From Patescibacteria group bacterium (lineage in GTDB: Bacteria; Patescibacteriota; Patescibacteriia; Patescibacteriales; WJLG01), in NCBI GenBank assembly GCA_028707065.1, contig JAQTUZ010000012.1, positions 1 to 44,923 of the forward strand: DNA of 44,923 nt, read 5' to 3'. The notes under the pieces are model-generated. The model was not told the origin of the DNA. It worked only from the letters and a program-made list of their open reading frames with translations, and did no database searches. How positions within the stretch are numbered: position 1 is the first letter of the stretch; each line of letters opens with the position of its first letter. Both the position numbers and the translations under genes were made by a program. This document shows, piece after piece, positions 6,899 through 36,545 of this stretch.

Positions 6899-8197
6899 AT
6901 GCGTTATGCGAAGTTGAGTGATTACGATTATTTTTTGCCGGACGAGTTGATCGCCACGCATCCGGCCGAGCCGCGAGACAGTTCGCGGCTTTTAGTGCTG
7001 GACAAAAAGACGGGGAAGATCGAGCATAAGCATTTTTACGATATTATTGATTATTTGCGCGCTGGCGATATTTTGGTTTTAAATAATTCCAAAGTTATTC
7101 CGGCGCGGCTTTGGGCGCGGAAGAAATTGACTGGTGGAAAAGTTGAAGTTTTATTGCACAAAAAATTAAGCGCAAATGTTTGGCAGTGCCTTTTAGGCGG
7201 ACGAGTGCAAGAAGGTTTGGAAATTTTATTCCCCTCTCGAGAGGGGTGGACGGCCGCCTCGGCCGGACGGGGTGTGTTAAAAATGGTTGCCGAAGGCGAT
7301 CGGCAAACCACCCCCTCCCACCACCCCCAAACCCCTCCTCGGGCAGGAGGGGGGGTCCTTGAAAAGGAGGGGGGATTGCTGCGGGCGTCAATCATGAAAA
7401 ATAATCACGACGGTACTTGGGATTTGAAATTTAATAAATCCGGCGCGGCGCTGATGAAGACGATTGAAAAAATCGGGGAAGTGCCGCTGCCACCGTACAT
7501 TGAAAATCAAAGAAAAAATAAAAGAGAAAAAAGAATAAACAAGGAAGACAAAAAAGAATACCAAACCGTTTATGCTGATGCAAAAAAGGCGGGGAGCGTG
7601 GCCGCGCCGACGGCGGGACTGCACTTTACGCCGGCGCTTTTGAAAAAGATTAATAAAAAAGGCGTGAAGATTTTGGAAATCACTCTTTATGTCGGCATGG
7701 GAACTTTCGCGCCGGTGAAAACGGAGGACATAACAAAGCACGTGATGCATTCAGAATTTGTCGAGATAAGCGGCAAGGTTATCGAAGAAATCAAAAAGAA
7801 CAAAGAACAAAGATCAAAGAACAAATCGGGTAGAATAATTGCGGTGGGGACGACGAGCGCGAGAAGCTTGGAAGCGTGCTTTTCAGTTTTAACACACCCC
7901 GCCTCGTCCACGCCCAAGGCGGACACGCCGGGCTCGGCACCCCTCTCCCACGCACGCTTCCGCTTTGCGGGGCAGGCAAGAGGGGAATTTAAATCGTGGG
8001 TGGATATTTTTGTTTACCCGGGATATAAATTCAAGGTAGTTGACGCGCTCATCACTAATTTTCATCTGCCCAAATCGACTTTATTGATGCTGGTTTCGGC
8101 TTTGGCCGGCAAGAAAAATATTGATCACGCTTATCGCGAGGCGATCAAGAAAAAATACCGCTTTTACAGTTACGGTGACGCGATGTTTATAAAATGA
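6899..8197 (+). CDS. queA: S-adenosylmethionine:tRNA ribosyltransferase-isomerase QueA
   Basis: Transfers the ribosyl moiety of SAM to 7-aminomethyl-7-deazaguanine in tRNA, the epoxyqueuosine step of queuosine synthesis. Family motifs are LPDELIATHPAEPRDSSRLL at the N-terminus, ILVLNNSKVIPARL, VAAPTAGLHFT, YVGMGTFAPVK, ITNFHLPKSTLLMLVSAL and FYSYGDAMFI at the end. At 432 residues it is about 80 longer than usual. The excess is two in-frame palindromic repeats, at about residues 111-160 and 332-363. Both lie between conserved blocks, so the enzyme may remain active. The second falls just after the conserved GTTSARSLEA. The start at 6899 follows a GTTATGCG-type repeat and lacks a ribosome binding site. 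Confidence 0.93.
   Translation: MRYAKLSDYDYFLPDELIATHPAEPRDSSRLLVLDKKTGKIEHKHFYDIIDYLRAGDILVLNNSKVIPARLWARKKLTGGKVEVLLHKKLSANVWQCLLGGRVQEGLEILFPSREGWTAASAGRGVLKMVAEGDRQTTPSHHPQTPPRAGGGVLEKEGGLLRASIMKNNHDGTWDLKFNKSGAALMKTIEKIGEVPLPPYIENQRKNKREKRINKEDKKEYQTVYADAKKAGSVAAPTAGLHFTPALLKKINKKGVKILEITLYVGMGTFAPVKTEDITKHVMHSEFVEISGKVIEEIKKNKEQRSKNKSGRIIAVGTTSARSLEACFSVLTHPASSTPKADTPGSAPLSHARFRFAGQARGEFKSWVDIFVYPGYKFKVVDALITNFHLPKSTLLMLVSALAGKKNIDHAYREAIKKKYRFYSYGDAMFIK
7231..7376. repeat. Composite palindromic repeat inserted in frame in queA (copy 1)
   Basis: CCCCTCTCGAGAGGGG, then GCCGCCTCGGCCGG and GGGGTGTGTTAAAAATG, a GCAAACCACCCCCTCCC block and CCTTGAAAAGGAGGGGGG. The order of words mirrors copy 3 in the helicase gene, and it is translated without a stop. 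Confidence 0.75.
7893..7986. repeat. Palindromic repeat inserted in frame in queA (copy 2)
   Basis: ACACCCCGCCTCGTCC, GCCCAAGGCGGAC and GGCACCCCTCTCCC, closing with GCAAGAGGGGA. Same family as 1201-1252. It encodes about 31 residues. Confidence 0.7.
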
Positions 8198-10373: not shown

Positions 10374-10871
10374 ATGAAGAGTATTGTCGGCCTGGTATTA
10401 TTTTTTGTTTTTCTCCTGGCATCGCTTTTGGTGCCTCCTTGGCCATTGCCGGTATCAGTTGTCGAGAGGACCGTAGAAAAATCAAGCCTGCCCAAATGCG
10501 CTCGGGAAGCGGGAGTGTTGCAAAAAGTTAAAGTCGATTATGAAATCGAATACGGGACGATCTATACTGGCGATCAGACGCCGATAGTCCACAGGGGTTC
10601 TGTCATAATCTCCACGAAGAAAGATGTGGGCATCGGGTCTAATGGACTGCCAATCTTGGGATTTTTCCCCCTTCATTCAGACATCACCTTCAAGCTTTAC
10701 AATGGCGAAGAGGCGACATTGCACATACCGGTTTTATCCTTGAAGCAGGTTAATGGCTTGCTGGAATTTAAGGATTTAAATCATATGTTCATGACCGTGG
10801 AAGTGTCGAAAAAAGAAAGCGGTACCTTTTTTGTCCACGCTTTTTCGGCAGCCGATCAAGGGACTATCTAA
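10374..10871 (+). CDS. Hypothetical exported or membrane-anchored protein
   Basis: 165 residues from the ATG at 10374, preceded by AAAAAGGGG; the upstream in-frame ATG at 10323 lacks a site and would spoil the signal sequence. Residues 1-27 (MKSIVGLVLFFVFLLASLLV...) are a signal peptide or anchor. The rest has beta-rich character (GSVIISTKKDVGIGSNGLPI) without a recognisable domain. It lies 59 bp after the previous gene, has similar codon use, and is followed by a terminator. Confidence 0.65.
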   Translation: MKSIVGLVLFFVFLLASLLVPPWPLPVSVVERTVEKSSLPKCAREAGVLQKVKVDYEIEYGTIYTGDQTPIVHRGSVIISTKKDVGIGSNGLPILGFFPLHSDITFKLYNGEEATLHIPVLSLKQVNGLLEFKDLNHMFMTVEVSKKESGTFFVHAFSAADQGTI

Positions 10872-23237: not shown

Positions 23238-23266
23238 ATATTATCAGGTTGATTTTTTTAAGTCAA
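23238..23266 (-). promoter_or_regulatory. Promoter of the 22813 gene
   Basis: Minus-strand TTGACT (23266-23261), 17-bp spacer, TAATAT (23243-23238). The -35 lies inside the 3' end of rnhB. Confidence 0.7.
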
Positions 23267-23899
23267 TTTTTTTAAAAGTTTTTTGACCGGGCCGAAGGTC
23301 TGGCGGTGGAACGGCGTGGGACCGTATTTTTTTAGGGCTTCCAGATGCTCTTTGGTGCCATAACCTTTATGGTTTAAAAATCCGTATTGCGGATATTGCA
23401 CGGCAAGCTCGGCGATCAGCCGGTCATGGGTGACTTTGGCAATGATCGAAGCGGCGGCGATCGAGAGAACGAAGGCGTCGCCGTTGATGATATTTTCCTG
23501 GCGTAGGCTTAAATTGGGAATGGGCGCCCGGCCGTCGAGCATAATATAATCGGGCTTGGTCTTGAGCGCGCCGATGGCTTTTTTCATGGCTAAAAAAGTC
23601 GCCTGATAAATATTGATCCGGTCAATTGTTTCATGATCGCAGACGCCGACGCCAACCTCGAAAAAATTATCTTTGATAATTTCAAAAAGCTCTTCGCGTT
23701 TTTTCTCCGGCACCAGCTTGGAATCCCTAATGGTTTTTAATTCCTTGACGGCGAAGAATTTTTCTACCATTTCCGGCTTAAGCGTGACCGCGGCGGCCAC
23801 GACCGGCCCGGCCAAAGGCCCTCTACCGGCCTCGTCCACTCCGGCGACGAGCGTCAGGCCGGAAGCGAACAGTGAATTTTCCTTTTTCAGATCGAGCAT
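23258..23899 (-). CDS. rnhB: Ribonuclease HII
   Basis: 213 residues. The signature GVDEAGRGPLAGPVVAAAV gives the catalytic D-E pair. DSKLVPEKKREELFE, the later YIMLDGRA and AAASIIAKVTHDR supply the remaining acidic and structural motifs. The end KYGPTPFHRQTFGPVKKLL is typical. RNase HII removes ribonucleotides from DNA and RNA primers. It is the last normal housekeeping gene before the cassette-like region. Confidence 0.95.
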   Translation of the reverse strand: MLDLKKENSLFASGLTLVAGVDEAGRGPLAGPVVAAAVTLKPEMVEKFFAVKELKTIRDSKLVPEKKREELFEIIKDNFFEVGVGVCDHETIDRINIYQATFLAMKKAIGALKTKPDYIMLDGRAPIPNLSLRQENIINGDAFVLSIAAASIIAKVTHDRLIAELAVQYPQYGFLNHKGYGTKEHLEALKKYGPTPFHRQTFGPVKKLLKKLT

Positions 23900-23997
23900 T
23901 GGTTTTCTTGTAAAATTAAGGAAATTTGTGATATAGTATCGATAGTTATTATCTTAGCTAATTTTGAGACAAAAAACAATCATTTCGTATATAATTT

Positions 23998-24638
23998 GTT
24001 AGGCAAAATTAAATTTATAAATAAAAAAACATGATCTATTATTTAGTTTTTTCAACATTCATCGTTTATTTTATTATTAGTATTTTATCTCGAGAATTGT
24101 ATTGGACTGCTTCGGGCGTTATAGTGTATAAATATCAAGGAAAACGTGCTGTCATGTTATCTTTTGGATTCTTGTTTTTGTTCATTTTTTTTGGCTGGAT
24201 GATAATTGATCAAAACAATATTTATTCATTAAATAAAGCGGCATTATCGTTAGTGTTTGCTGTTCCACTAGGAGTGATATTAAGAATGATGTTAATCTCG
24301 ATGCATCGAAGTCTGGGGGTGGAAATAGGAGAAACGACCAGAAAAAGAACAAAAAAAAGCATGACCGAATGGGCAATCGCAGGATTTTTTATAAGTCTGC
24401 CCATTAATTTTTTATTATATTTTTTTCTTAAATATACCATCAACATAACGACGGCTATAGTTACAATGTGTATTGTCACGATAAGTTCAATATTATTTTT
24501 TTCATTTTGGGGATCAAGAACTGTTTTCGAATAAAGCATTTTTTTATTTATAAATTTAACTCCGCCTAACACGGCATATCCGGTTCCGCTTCGCTCTACC
24601 CAAATCCGCCCAGGGCGGACTTCGGATAATGCCGATAC
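23998..24638 (+). mobile_element. Integron-like gene cassette 1
   Basis: Starts with GTTAGGC (23998-24004) and carries the exact inverse GCCTAAC at 24564-24570. Just inside, after 4-bp spacers on both sides, a 21-bp sequence at 24009-24029 is repeated exactly inverted at 24539-24559. This is how a cassette should look: the R'' box of its attC pairs with an R' box made from its own first bases. It holds one ORF. No integrase or attI is visible. Confidence 0.7.
24031..24534 (+). CDS. Hypothetical multi-pass membrane protein (cassette 1 cargo)
   Basis: 167 residues with about four hydrophobic segments: 1-18, 45-64, 70-90 region and two near the C-terminus (ITTAIVTMCIVTISSILFFS). The family is unrecognised. 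It is strongly AT-rich compared with rnhB and the genes after 26 kb. No Shine-Dalgarno site (AATAAAAAAAC precedes the ATG). It fills the first cassette-like unit almost completely. Confidence 0.75.
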   Translation: MIYYLVFSTFIVYFIISILSRELYWTASGVIVYKYQGKRAVMLSFGFLFLFIFFGWMIIDQNNIYSLNKAALSLVFAVPLGVILRMMLISMHRSLGVEIGETTRKRTKKSMTEWAIAGFFISLPINFLLYFFLKYTINITTAIVTMCIVTISSILFFSFWGSRTVFE

Positions 24639-24645
24639 GTTGTAT
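24564..24645 (+). other. attC-like recombination site 1
   Basis: R''-like GCCTAAC, 1-bp gap, L'' arm CGGCATATCCG (24572-24582). A variable centre includes the stem TCCGCCC/GGGCGGA. The L' arm CGGATAATGCCG (24623-24634) carries one extra base, then a 4-bp gap and R'-like GTTGTAT (24639-24645). At 82 bp it falls within the usual attC range. The R' box departs from the GTTRRRY consensus at one position. Confidence 0.65.
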
Positions 24646-25416
24646 GCAAGTTTTACTGGACAATTTTTATAATAATTAATATTTCCTGAAGGAGAATATA
24701 TTTATGGCACATGAACAAATAACAATTGACGAAAAGAACATTATCACATTTCCAATATTTTGTTGGAGAGTAATTGCTGTTTATATGATAGCGTATTTAA
24801 TTCCTGCTTTTGTTGCTCAAATTTACTATAAGCCTATTTGGGACGCAGGTACAATTTCAGCGATAATGAGACCAATGAACTCACCGTTGGTTGCTTTAGG
24901 GCCAATGCTTCAATCAATAAATGCATTTTTTATCGCTATTGTTCTTTTTCCTATCCGAAGTTTGATAATCGACCGAAAAAATGGTTGGTTAACATTATTC
25001 CTGCTTGTCGCCGGTTTTTCAATATTTGTTCCTCAGGCTCCCGCACCAAGCTCATTTGAGGGGTTTATTTATACAAAATTAACCATATCTGAACATTTAA
25101 TTGGTTTGCCTGAAGGCTTAATATTTTCATTTCTTTTTTCATTTGGATTATATCATTGGTATAGACGACCAAAAAAAATATGGAATATTATTTCAATTGC
25201 GCTGATTATATTAATCGTTCTTATGAGTACATTAGGATTTCTTGCAGCCATTGGAATAATTAAACAATCTTAATATTGTCCAGCAAAATCAGCGTACAAC
25301 AGCGCATATATGCTCCGCTCCCGATGGTCGCTTCGGGCTAAAGCCACATTTTTTATTTTGTCTGCTGCGCTTCGCTCGCTTTTCGGCAAAATAAAAAACG
25401 TCATATATGTGCGAAC
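24639..25416 (+). mobile_element. Integron-like gene cassette 2
   Basis: Starts GTTGTATGC (24639) and carries GCGTACAAC at 25292-25300. Over 26 bp, the start (24639-24664) and the inverse of 25275-25300 match at 21 positions, including ATTGTCCAG at the far end. One ORF lies inside and an attC-like hairpin ends it, as in cassette 1. Confidence 0.68.
24704..25273 (+). CDS. Hypothetical multi-pass membrane protein (cassette 2 cargo)
   Basis: 189 residues, about five hydrophobic segments, including VIAVYMIAYLIPAFVAQIYY near the N-terminus and IISIALIILIVLMSTLGFLA at the end. The family is unrecognised; the overall look recalls small integral membrane proteins of mobile cassettes. Preceded by CTGAAGGAGAATATATTT, a usable ribosome binding site. 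AT-rich. Not similar to the cassette 1 protein. Confidence 0.75.
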   Translation: MAHEQITIDEKNIITFPIFCWRVIAVYMIAYLIPAFVAQIYYKPIWDAGTISAIMRPMNSPLVALGPMLQSINAFFIAIVLFPIRSLIIDRKNGWLTLFLLVAGFSIFVPQAPAPSSFEGFIYTKLTISEHLIGLPEGLIFSFLFSFGLYHWYRRPKKIWNIISIALIILIVLMSTLGFLAAIGIIKQS

Positions 25417-25423
25417 GTTAGGA
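25294..25423 (+). other. attC-like recombination site 2
   Basis: R''-like GTACAAC (25294-25300), 2-bp gap, L'' CGCATATATG (25303-25312). A long centre contains the perfect stem ATTTTTTATTTTG/CAAAATAAAAAA. L' CATATATGTGCG (25402-25413) has two extra bases, followed by a 3-bp gap and R'-like GTTAGGA (25417-25423). At 130 bp it is long but within the range of large attC sites. Gap sizes match those of site 1. Confidence 0.65.
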
Positions 25424-25709
25424 GAAATGTTGCTCCGCTTTGCTGAAGCTCCGGAGAGGCAGGCGAAGGATTTATTTCGCGCGAACCCGGGATTTTCGCG
25501 GCCAGACTTTTTATCAGTTAATTGTAATATTGACAGTAGAAGTTTTAAATTTTAACGATAAGTATTTTTTTGCTCGGCGGGTTTATGATCGTTTTAGCTG
25601 ATTTTAAGATAAAAAACAACACCGAGCGATTATTATTAAATGTTCTTTGTCAAAATGTTTTTTAGCAAGTGTCTGATCATTAACCAATAACCGATTGAGG
25701 AGGCTGATC
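25424..25709. other. Non-coding stretch after the cassette-like units
   Basis: A third cassette would need an inverse of GTTAGGA downstream, and none is seen before 26 kb. The stretch contains GCTCCGGAGAGGC and AGGCGAAGGATTT, similar to family B repeat words. I see no convincing gene here. Confidence 0.5.
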
Positions 25710-36091: not shown

Positions 36092-36545
36092 TGTTCTTAA
36101 AGTGTGGATTCGAACAGGTCAGGAGTGAGGCAATGGCCGCGAGGGAACGAGCGGCCGGCAGCCGAACGTCCGCCGACCTGCCGGGGGCAGGTCGGCGCTG
36201 ACCCCGGACAAGGGAGGCCGCCGCAATTGCGGCGGCGGCCGACCGCGGAAATCCCTCTGAGCGCACTGAAAATTAAAAAACGGGCATTCGCCCGTTTTTT
36301 AATTTTCCGCTCAGAGGGATTCGAACTGGTTGCGAGCGAGCTATGAGCCGCGAGGGAACGAGCGGCGAATAAGCGAGCGACGCCGGCCTTTCGGGGAAAG
36401 GCCGGCGGCAACCCTGGACAAGGGAGGCCGCCGCAATTGCGGCGGCGGCCGACCGCGTGCTGGTTATTTGAGAAAATTTTTAGAACGATAGAGGGATTCG
36501 AACTAGGCAGGAGCGAGACAAATTTGCCGCCGCAATTCCGTCGGT
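36092..36545. repeat. Tandem mosaic of tRNA 3' ends, terminators and GC-rich blocks
   Basis: GGATTCGAAC, an inverted tRNA T-arm, recurs at 36106, 36317 and 36494. A 42-bp block at 36206-36247 is repeated exactly at 36416-36457; GCCGCGAGGGAACGAGCGG occurs at 36136 and 36347, so the unit is about 210 bp. Between units, the tRNA-Lys end AATCCCTCTGAGCGCA (36250-36265) is followed by a CGGGCATTCGCCCG terminator and the inverse CGCTCAGAGGGATTCGAAC. The third unit is degenerate. Open reading frames here are artefacts of GC-rich repeats. Confidence 0.8.

Follow-up and report, generated by a model that had tools for sequence, protein, structure and literature searches.

A cassette array beside rnhB in a Patescibacteria genome as the very likely remnant of a non-canonical chromosomal integron

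The window, a stretch of 44,923 nucleotides, comes from a 1.51-Mb draft genome of a Patescibacteria group bacterium (42 contigs, 95% complete, 4.8% contamination); relatives from its order and class have genomes of 0.6 to 1.7 Mb, sizes that fit the inferred placement in the Candidate Phyla Radiation. The minus strand carries rnhB, which encodes RNase HII (23258..23899; assigned by Pfam and by synteny in G002, G051, and G089), and an attI-like site that also holds the promoter part upstream of an integrase gene now lost (23947..24010; located with nhmmer). Read on the plus strand, the core of this site is ATTTCGTATATAATTT|GTTAGGC. The cassettes lie on the plus strand. Cassette 1 (23999..24639), which is bounded by the R box pair GTTAGGC/GCCTAAC and an end repeat, exact over 21 nt, with spacers of 4 nt, contains ORF1 (24031..24534; 167 aa), predicted from composition to be a membrane protein of no known family, and the hairpin attC1 (24564..24645). 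Cassette 2 (24640..25417), with R boxes GTTGTAT and GTACAAC, contains ORF2 (24704..25273; 189 aa), another predicted membrane protein, and attC2 (25294..25423). The boundaries of cassette 1 assume a G|TT cut by analogy to integrons. The start of a truncated third cassette follows (GTTAGGA-GAAAT, plus strand, 25417..25428). This start motif is typical of the lineage and occurs in 20 of 24 attC sites of relatives, and no matching R'' was seen downstream by eye. Beyond the array, the minus strand carries the integrase-promoter part of the attI region a second time, as a partial copy (25584..25621; E = 0.0084 in the window). It is an 88% direct repeat of 23954-23979 and could be left over from a second integrase or from the deletion event. 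Elsewhere in the window, a 20-nt perfect palindrome (GCCGCCGCAATTGCGGCGGC) occurs twice (36217-36236 and 36427-36446) shortly after a tRNA gene. Several near-perfect, REP-like palindromes sharing a 28-nt core (GTAGAGACGTTGCATGCAACGTCTCTAC) lie close to rnhB in another genome (L060 of G034, 7393-7881 and 10523-10598).

The original prediction, made from sequence alone, described two same-facing cassettes with two attC-like sites and no integrase. All of its coordinates held, with boxes, spacers, and hairpins where it had placed them, as did the shared direction of the ORFs. It had missed the attI-like site abutting unit 1 and the third-cassette start.

In both units, the R'' box pairs with the first bases of its own cassette, as had been claimed. 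For unit 1, GTTAGGC (23998-24004) pairs with GCCTAAC (24564-24570), and inside equal 4-nt spacers (AAAA/CTCC) lies the exact 21-nt inverted repeat, with its left arm at 24009..24029 and its right arm at 24539..24559 (inverted-repeat analysis, plus strand). This is the top inverted repeat of the whole window for arms 200 to 2000 nt apart; it scores 24, whereas none of 300 shuffles of the region gave more than 16. For unit 2, the boxes are GTTGTAT(GC) at 24639 and (GC)GTACAAC at 25294-25300. The end complementarity, predicted as 21 of 26 bp, is present and extends over 48-nt arms that are 73% complementary. By a strict ungapped score, this extended repeat alone is not above chance, but the attC site of unit 2 is. 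Relatives' attC sites are usually preceded by CATC or CTTC before R'' and followed by a GAAA-like stretch after R' and then by a cassette-specific inverted repeat. The suggestion that extended pairing of cassette ends characterizes this lineage is supported. Such pairing would exist only in the excised circle, after circularization. Model predictions of folding gave -33.7 kcal/mol for the joined ends of unit 1 versus -14.7 kcal/mol for attC1 in the array. Because folding of the circle is predicted to be far more favorable than folding of the site within the array, end pairing may stabilize the circle and favor insertion over excision and loss, although this step is inferred.

Both hairpins have the layout R''-1 nt-L''...L'-4 nt-R' (the predicted gaps were 1-2 and 3-4 bp). 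The first half of attC1 reads R'' GCCTAAC - A - L'' CGGCATATCCG - GGTTC and the second half reads ACTTC - L' CGGAT(A)ATGCCG - ATAC - R' GTTGTAT, while attC2 reads R'' GTACAAC - A - GCGCATATATG ... CATATATGTGC - GAAC - R' GTTAGGA. As to the extra unpaired bases predicted in the right-hand L arm, attC1 has one unpaired A, on the L' side, and attC2 has no unpaired L base. The R''-L''-L'-R' arms and the AAC/GTT of canonical attC sites are present in the window sites, and the extrahelical bases that canonical sites carry on the R''-L'' arm are absent from both. The consensus of relatives' sites is AAC-A-L''(11)-GGTTC ... ACTTC-L'(11)-NNAC-GTT, with no unpaired L base in 17 of 24 and one on the L' side in the other 7. 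A site in G025 (L055, 2358-2485), 3 kb from rnhB, has a core nearly identical to that of attC1. Across 13 sites of relatives, the arms showed 40 two-sided changes compared to 15.7 in shuffles, and the signal collapsed in slid controls; the 13 sites had been picked partly for pairing.

To score attC sites, we used a model trained on 24 hand-picked sites of relatives, all from other genomes. Scores were 49.4 for attC1, the top site of the genome, and 43.1 for attC2. The runner-up reached 14.7 in the window and about 22 (at most 22.4) in the rest of the 1.5-Mb genome, where nothing else scored 30 or more (2.93 Mb, both strands counted). Among 120 shuffled windows, the highest score was at most 30.5 and the median maximum was 14.8. 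When training left out one source locus at a time, attC1 stayed at 48 to 50 and attC2 at 41 to 44. No site in the canonical integron loci scanned reached 18; canonical reference sites (class 1, Vibrio, and Shewanella arrays) served as contrast only. Failure of a relaxed attC search would have counted against the original prediction, and both sites match the trained model. A Treponema attC model matched attC2 only in two colinear pieces, one of them weak (25290-25339, E = 0.22; 25342-25431, E = 4.6e-4). Our first generic attC scanners were dropped for lack of specificity, as terminator hairpins scored equally high. A generic GCCTAAC...GTTAGGC pattern had no match in the genome. A covariance model built from 13 short-form sites (R1) missed both window sites. 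It recovered its own short sites and failed on sites with long central loops or unpaired bases, and we do not count this miss as negative evidence.

The cassette genes are accessory. Neither ORF1 nor ORF2 has a convincing homologue among 184 relatives, so conservation of both genes, which would have refuted mobility, was not seen. Two matches to ORF2 in relatives (E ~5e-4) were chance-level fragments, and no curated family matched either ORF above cut-off. The genome from the same genus lacks cassettes at the corresponding place, which bears on the proposed gain or loss near rnhB; variation of cassette content between close relatives, a canonical integron trait, is met. In that genome (G001), DNA downstream of rnhB is duplicated in tandem (L053, 8831-12054; arms up to 100% identical), and the duplication covers a lipoprotein-like gene and a second gene pair as well as the tail of rnhB. 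The duplicated rnhB tail was set aside as an ordinary tandem duplication.

Outside these relatives, ORF2 has relatives at 38 to 39% identity in termite-gut metagenome-assembled genomes of Treponema, Tannerella, and the archaeon Methanorudis. The Treponema gene lies between two attC sites and its cassette has its own end pairing (GTTATGCGAAATTGCACCTTG against CAAGGTGCAACTTCGCATGAC); both the attC and the end pairing resemble those of the window. By eye, no attC sites were seen near the Tannerella and Methanorudis copies (L088/L090 set), the former chromosomal and followed by a second membrane-protein gene, the latter frameshifted. The termite-gut Treponema genome with the ORF2 relative (G192) carries a large integron-like array with more than 40 attC copies (L121, 1087-2322, and L089-L120). 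Its integrase is insert-less, 411 aa long with an N-terminal extension of ~130 aa, and lies beside a cassette.

In relatives, attI lies just upstream of a recombinase gene of ~280 aa, as a conserved element of roughly AACAAGTTATATGCGAACTT followed by the promoter region of the gene. An nhmmer model of nine such upstream regions, with the window left out, matched 24010-23947 on the minus strand, abutting GTTAGGC of unit 1 (E = 4.8e-7 in the window). This was the sole significant match in the whole genome (E = 1.6e-5). An attI next to the first cassette, another canonical integron trait, is therefore present. The same neighborhood houses integrases in relatives. Specifically, the integrase gene is just upstream of rnhB in G089, and in G002, of the same family as the window genome, it abuts rnhB and is truncated where the contig ends. 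G051 has a broken integrase copy and attI upstream of rnhB beside an array of at least four units, whose genes we called by eye as NUDIX-like, methyltransferase-like, and kinase-like. Contigs of relatives often start no more than 0.9 kb upstream of the integrase gene, as expected because arrays are variable and repeat-rich. We found attC sites upstream of the integrase in 10 of 12 loci inspected, with none at the other two (L071 and L130). All 24 sites scoring at least 30 in these 12 loci were upstream and pointed away from the gene, and none were downstream in 46 kb. Most of the 24 were training sites; with their own locus left out, the scores hold, and 1 of 24 drops below 30.

The recombinases of relatives form a family of ~270 to 300 aa, found in about 69 of 185 relatives by our own count of full members. 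Family-profile scores were about 180 to 450 bits for members, mostly above 290, and about 130 to 165 bits for Xer proteins. The whole region of the IntI-specific insert is missing from these integrases in alignment. We had considered TIGR02249 matches in relatives as ordinary Xer proteins and rejected this, as the split match (1-180, 237-314) reflects the missing insert. Residues R143, K168, H233, R236, H259, and Y268 (numbering of the first sequence), which we take to be the active site as identified by motif, are invariant. In a small tree of 31 proteins, the family grouped with IntI (100/98), apart from the sampled Xer proteins, including one archaeal sequence. In databases, the family is XerA-like (NF040815, 236.9 bits; best PDB match, 4a8e). 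One 322-aa member (L033, G176:C7:50046-50909) has a partial, unrelated-looking extra segment at the position of the IntI insert, possibly as an intermediate or as an independent insertion.

The genome of the window encodes no member of this family at E <= 1e-30, and both it and its same-genus relative G001 gave only Xer-level matches to the family profile. The insert-bearing tyrosine recombinase that the original prediction proposed to look for was not found elsewhere in the genome either: the best match to IntI was an Xer-like protein with 53.5 bits against a cut-off of 265. IntI was above the NCBIfam cut-off in no relative. Because the attI and promoter remnant directly adjoin rnhB in the window, we conclude that the integrase gene itself was deleted from this locus. 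It remains possible that an integrase sits on a missing contig of the draft genome, yet the place predicted by synteny is present and empty.

Together, we consider it very likely that the locus is the remnant of a non-canonical chromosomal integron that kept attI and two cassettes and lost its integrase, with recombination itself being inferred. The original reading of an integrase-less cassette array is supported, with two corrections. The locus goes beyond a CALIN, since it has kept the attI-like site and its integrase was deleted. The array type is also non-canonical, as the cognate integrases of relatives lack the IntI-specific insert and the attC sites differ in spacing and in the position of the unpaired base. 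In the proposed history, an ancestor would have encoded an insert-less tyrosine recombinase between rnhB and attI. At attI, where the GTT of cassette 1 lies at 23998, this enzyme would have integrated cassettes in circular form, each ending in an attC whose R'' and the stretch beyond it pair with the cassette's own start. Loss of the integrase would have left two membrane-protein cassettes and the start of a third, in an array that would be frozen, as its integrase gene is lost, unless an integrase acts in trans. Relatives do have the integrase, attI, and attC arrays, but no recombination event was observed, and both the action of the insert-less recombinase on sites of the window type and its work on folded single strands are inferred.

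Among alternative explanations, an ordinary CALIN, whose cassettes came from a canonical IntI integron and settled at this place by chance, fits the attC-like hairpins, the single gene orientation, and the missing integrase. We regard it as unlikely, however, given that cassette 1 is directly bordered by an attI-like site of the kind specific to insert-less integrases and that none of the relatives passes the NCBIfam cut-off for IntI. The attC layout, in which the spacers are 1 and 4 nt and an unpaired base is either absent or on the L' side, agrees with the arrays of relatives and is unmatched in every canonical integron locus scanned. Xer-driven dif (pdif) modules, in which short sites flanking genes are moved by XerC/XerD, gain some support from the XerA-like database assignment of the recombinase family. 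Such modules use short two-armed sites, often alternating in orientation. Here, the sites are 82- to 130-nt hairpins with covarying arms and variable loops, all genes have the same orientation, and pairing links each site to the start of its own cassette, making this explanation very unlikely. Finally, the window holds many hairpins, as it might if terminators or repeats simply surrounded two resident genes, but this too is very unlikely given that the genome-wide scan sets the two sites apart from all others, that neither gene occurs in any of the 184 relatives, and that no terminator-like pattern was found in the region.

Our preferred reading, an integron remnant, describes a system that works like an integron, with recombination inferred, and that falls outside the canonical class because the IntI insert and the extrahelical-base layout were checked and are both absent. 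A bolder reading is that bacteria with small genomes, probably CPR/Patescibacteria, and some treponemes of termite guts operate a second type of integron, with an insert-less integrase, attC sites mostly without extrahelical bases, 1/4-nt spacer polarity, and paired ends that stabilize the circle. As a joint claim, we lean toward this reading by a narrow margin. It is also possible that the insert-less integrase resembles the state before the insert was gained. In the open-access literature that we searched (subscription papers and preprints were outside its scope), no integrons were described in CPR/Patescibacteria, and integrons of the present type were not described either. Standard integron detection uses the IntI insert and attC models trained mainly on Proteobacteria, and because of this reliance the insert-less type should escape such searches. 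If this type is real, a large group of bacteria with tiny genomes would commonly capture gene cassettes, and distant phyla would exchange cassettes whose genes and sites are related. It would also open to testing how an attC strand is chosen without the insert that reads extrahelical bases, and how integrons originated from Xer-like recombinases.

Compared to chromosomal integrons (IntI, attI, and attC; Vibrio and Treponema), the system shares an attI beside the integrase gene, one-gene cassettes of variable content with hairpin attC sites (R''/R' AAC...GTT), and cassettes that face away from the integrase. It differs in that the relatives' integrase lacks the IntI-specific insert, in the attC spacers of 1 and 4 nt, and in cassette ends that pair over a long stretch in this lineage, with spacers of the GAAA/CATC type. 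In canonical attC sites, extrahelical bases sit on the R''-L'' arm, where they determine which strand is used and are required for excision between two attC sites (PMC2727003), whereas the sites of this lineage mostly have none or one on the L' arm. The insert of IntI contacts extrahelical bases, and their scarcity here may fit an enzyme without that insert; polarity could come from the asymmetry of the 1- and 4-nt spacers. Like a CALIN (IntegronFinder; PMC9024848, PMC9668308), the window has two attC sites and no integrase in the genome, but it keeps an attI-like site, and its attC type was unmatched by the canonical arrays tested. The Treponema array of G192 is similar in its many attC copies, its insert-less integrase, and the ORF2 relative in a cassette, but its N-terminally extended integrase faces the same way as the cassettes and its attC sites are longer. 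A previous study examined two termite species and reported no integrons from them (PMC3607928). Archaeal XerA and other NF040815 recombinases resemble the insert-less family in overall length, absence of the insert, and the best structural match. In contrast, the insert-less family groups with IntI on our small tree and is accompanied by attI and cassette arrays.
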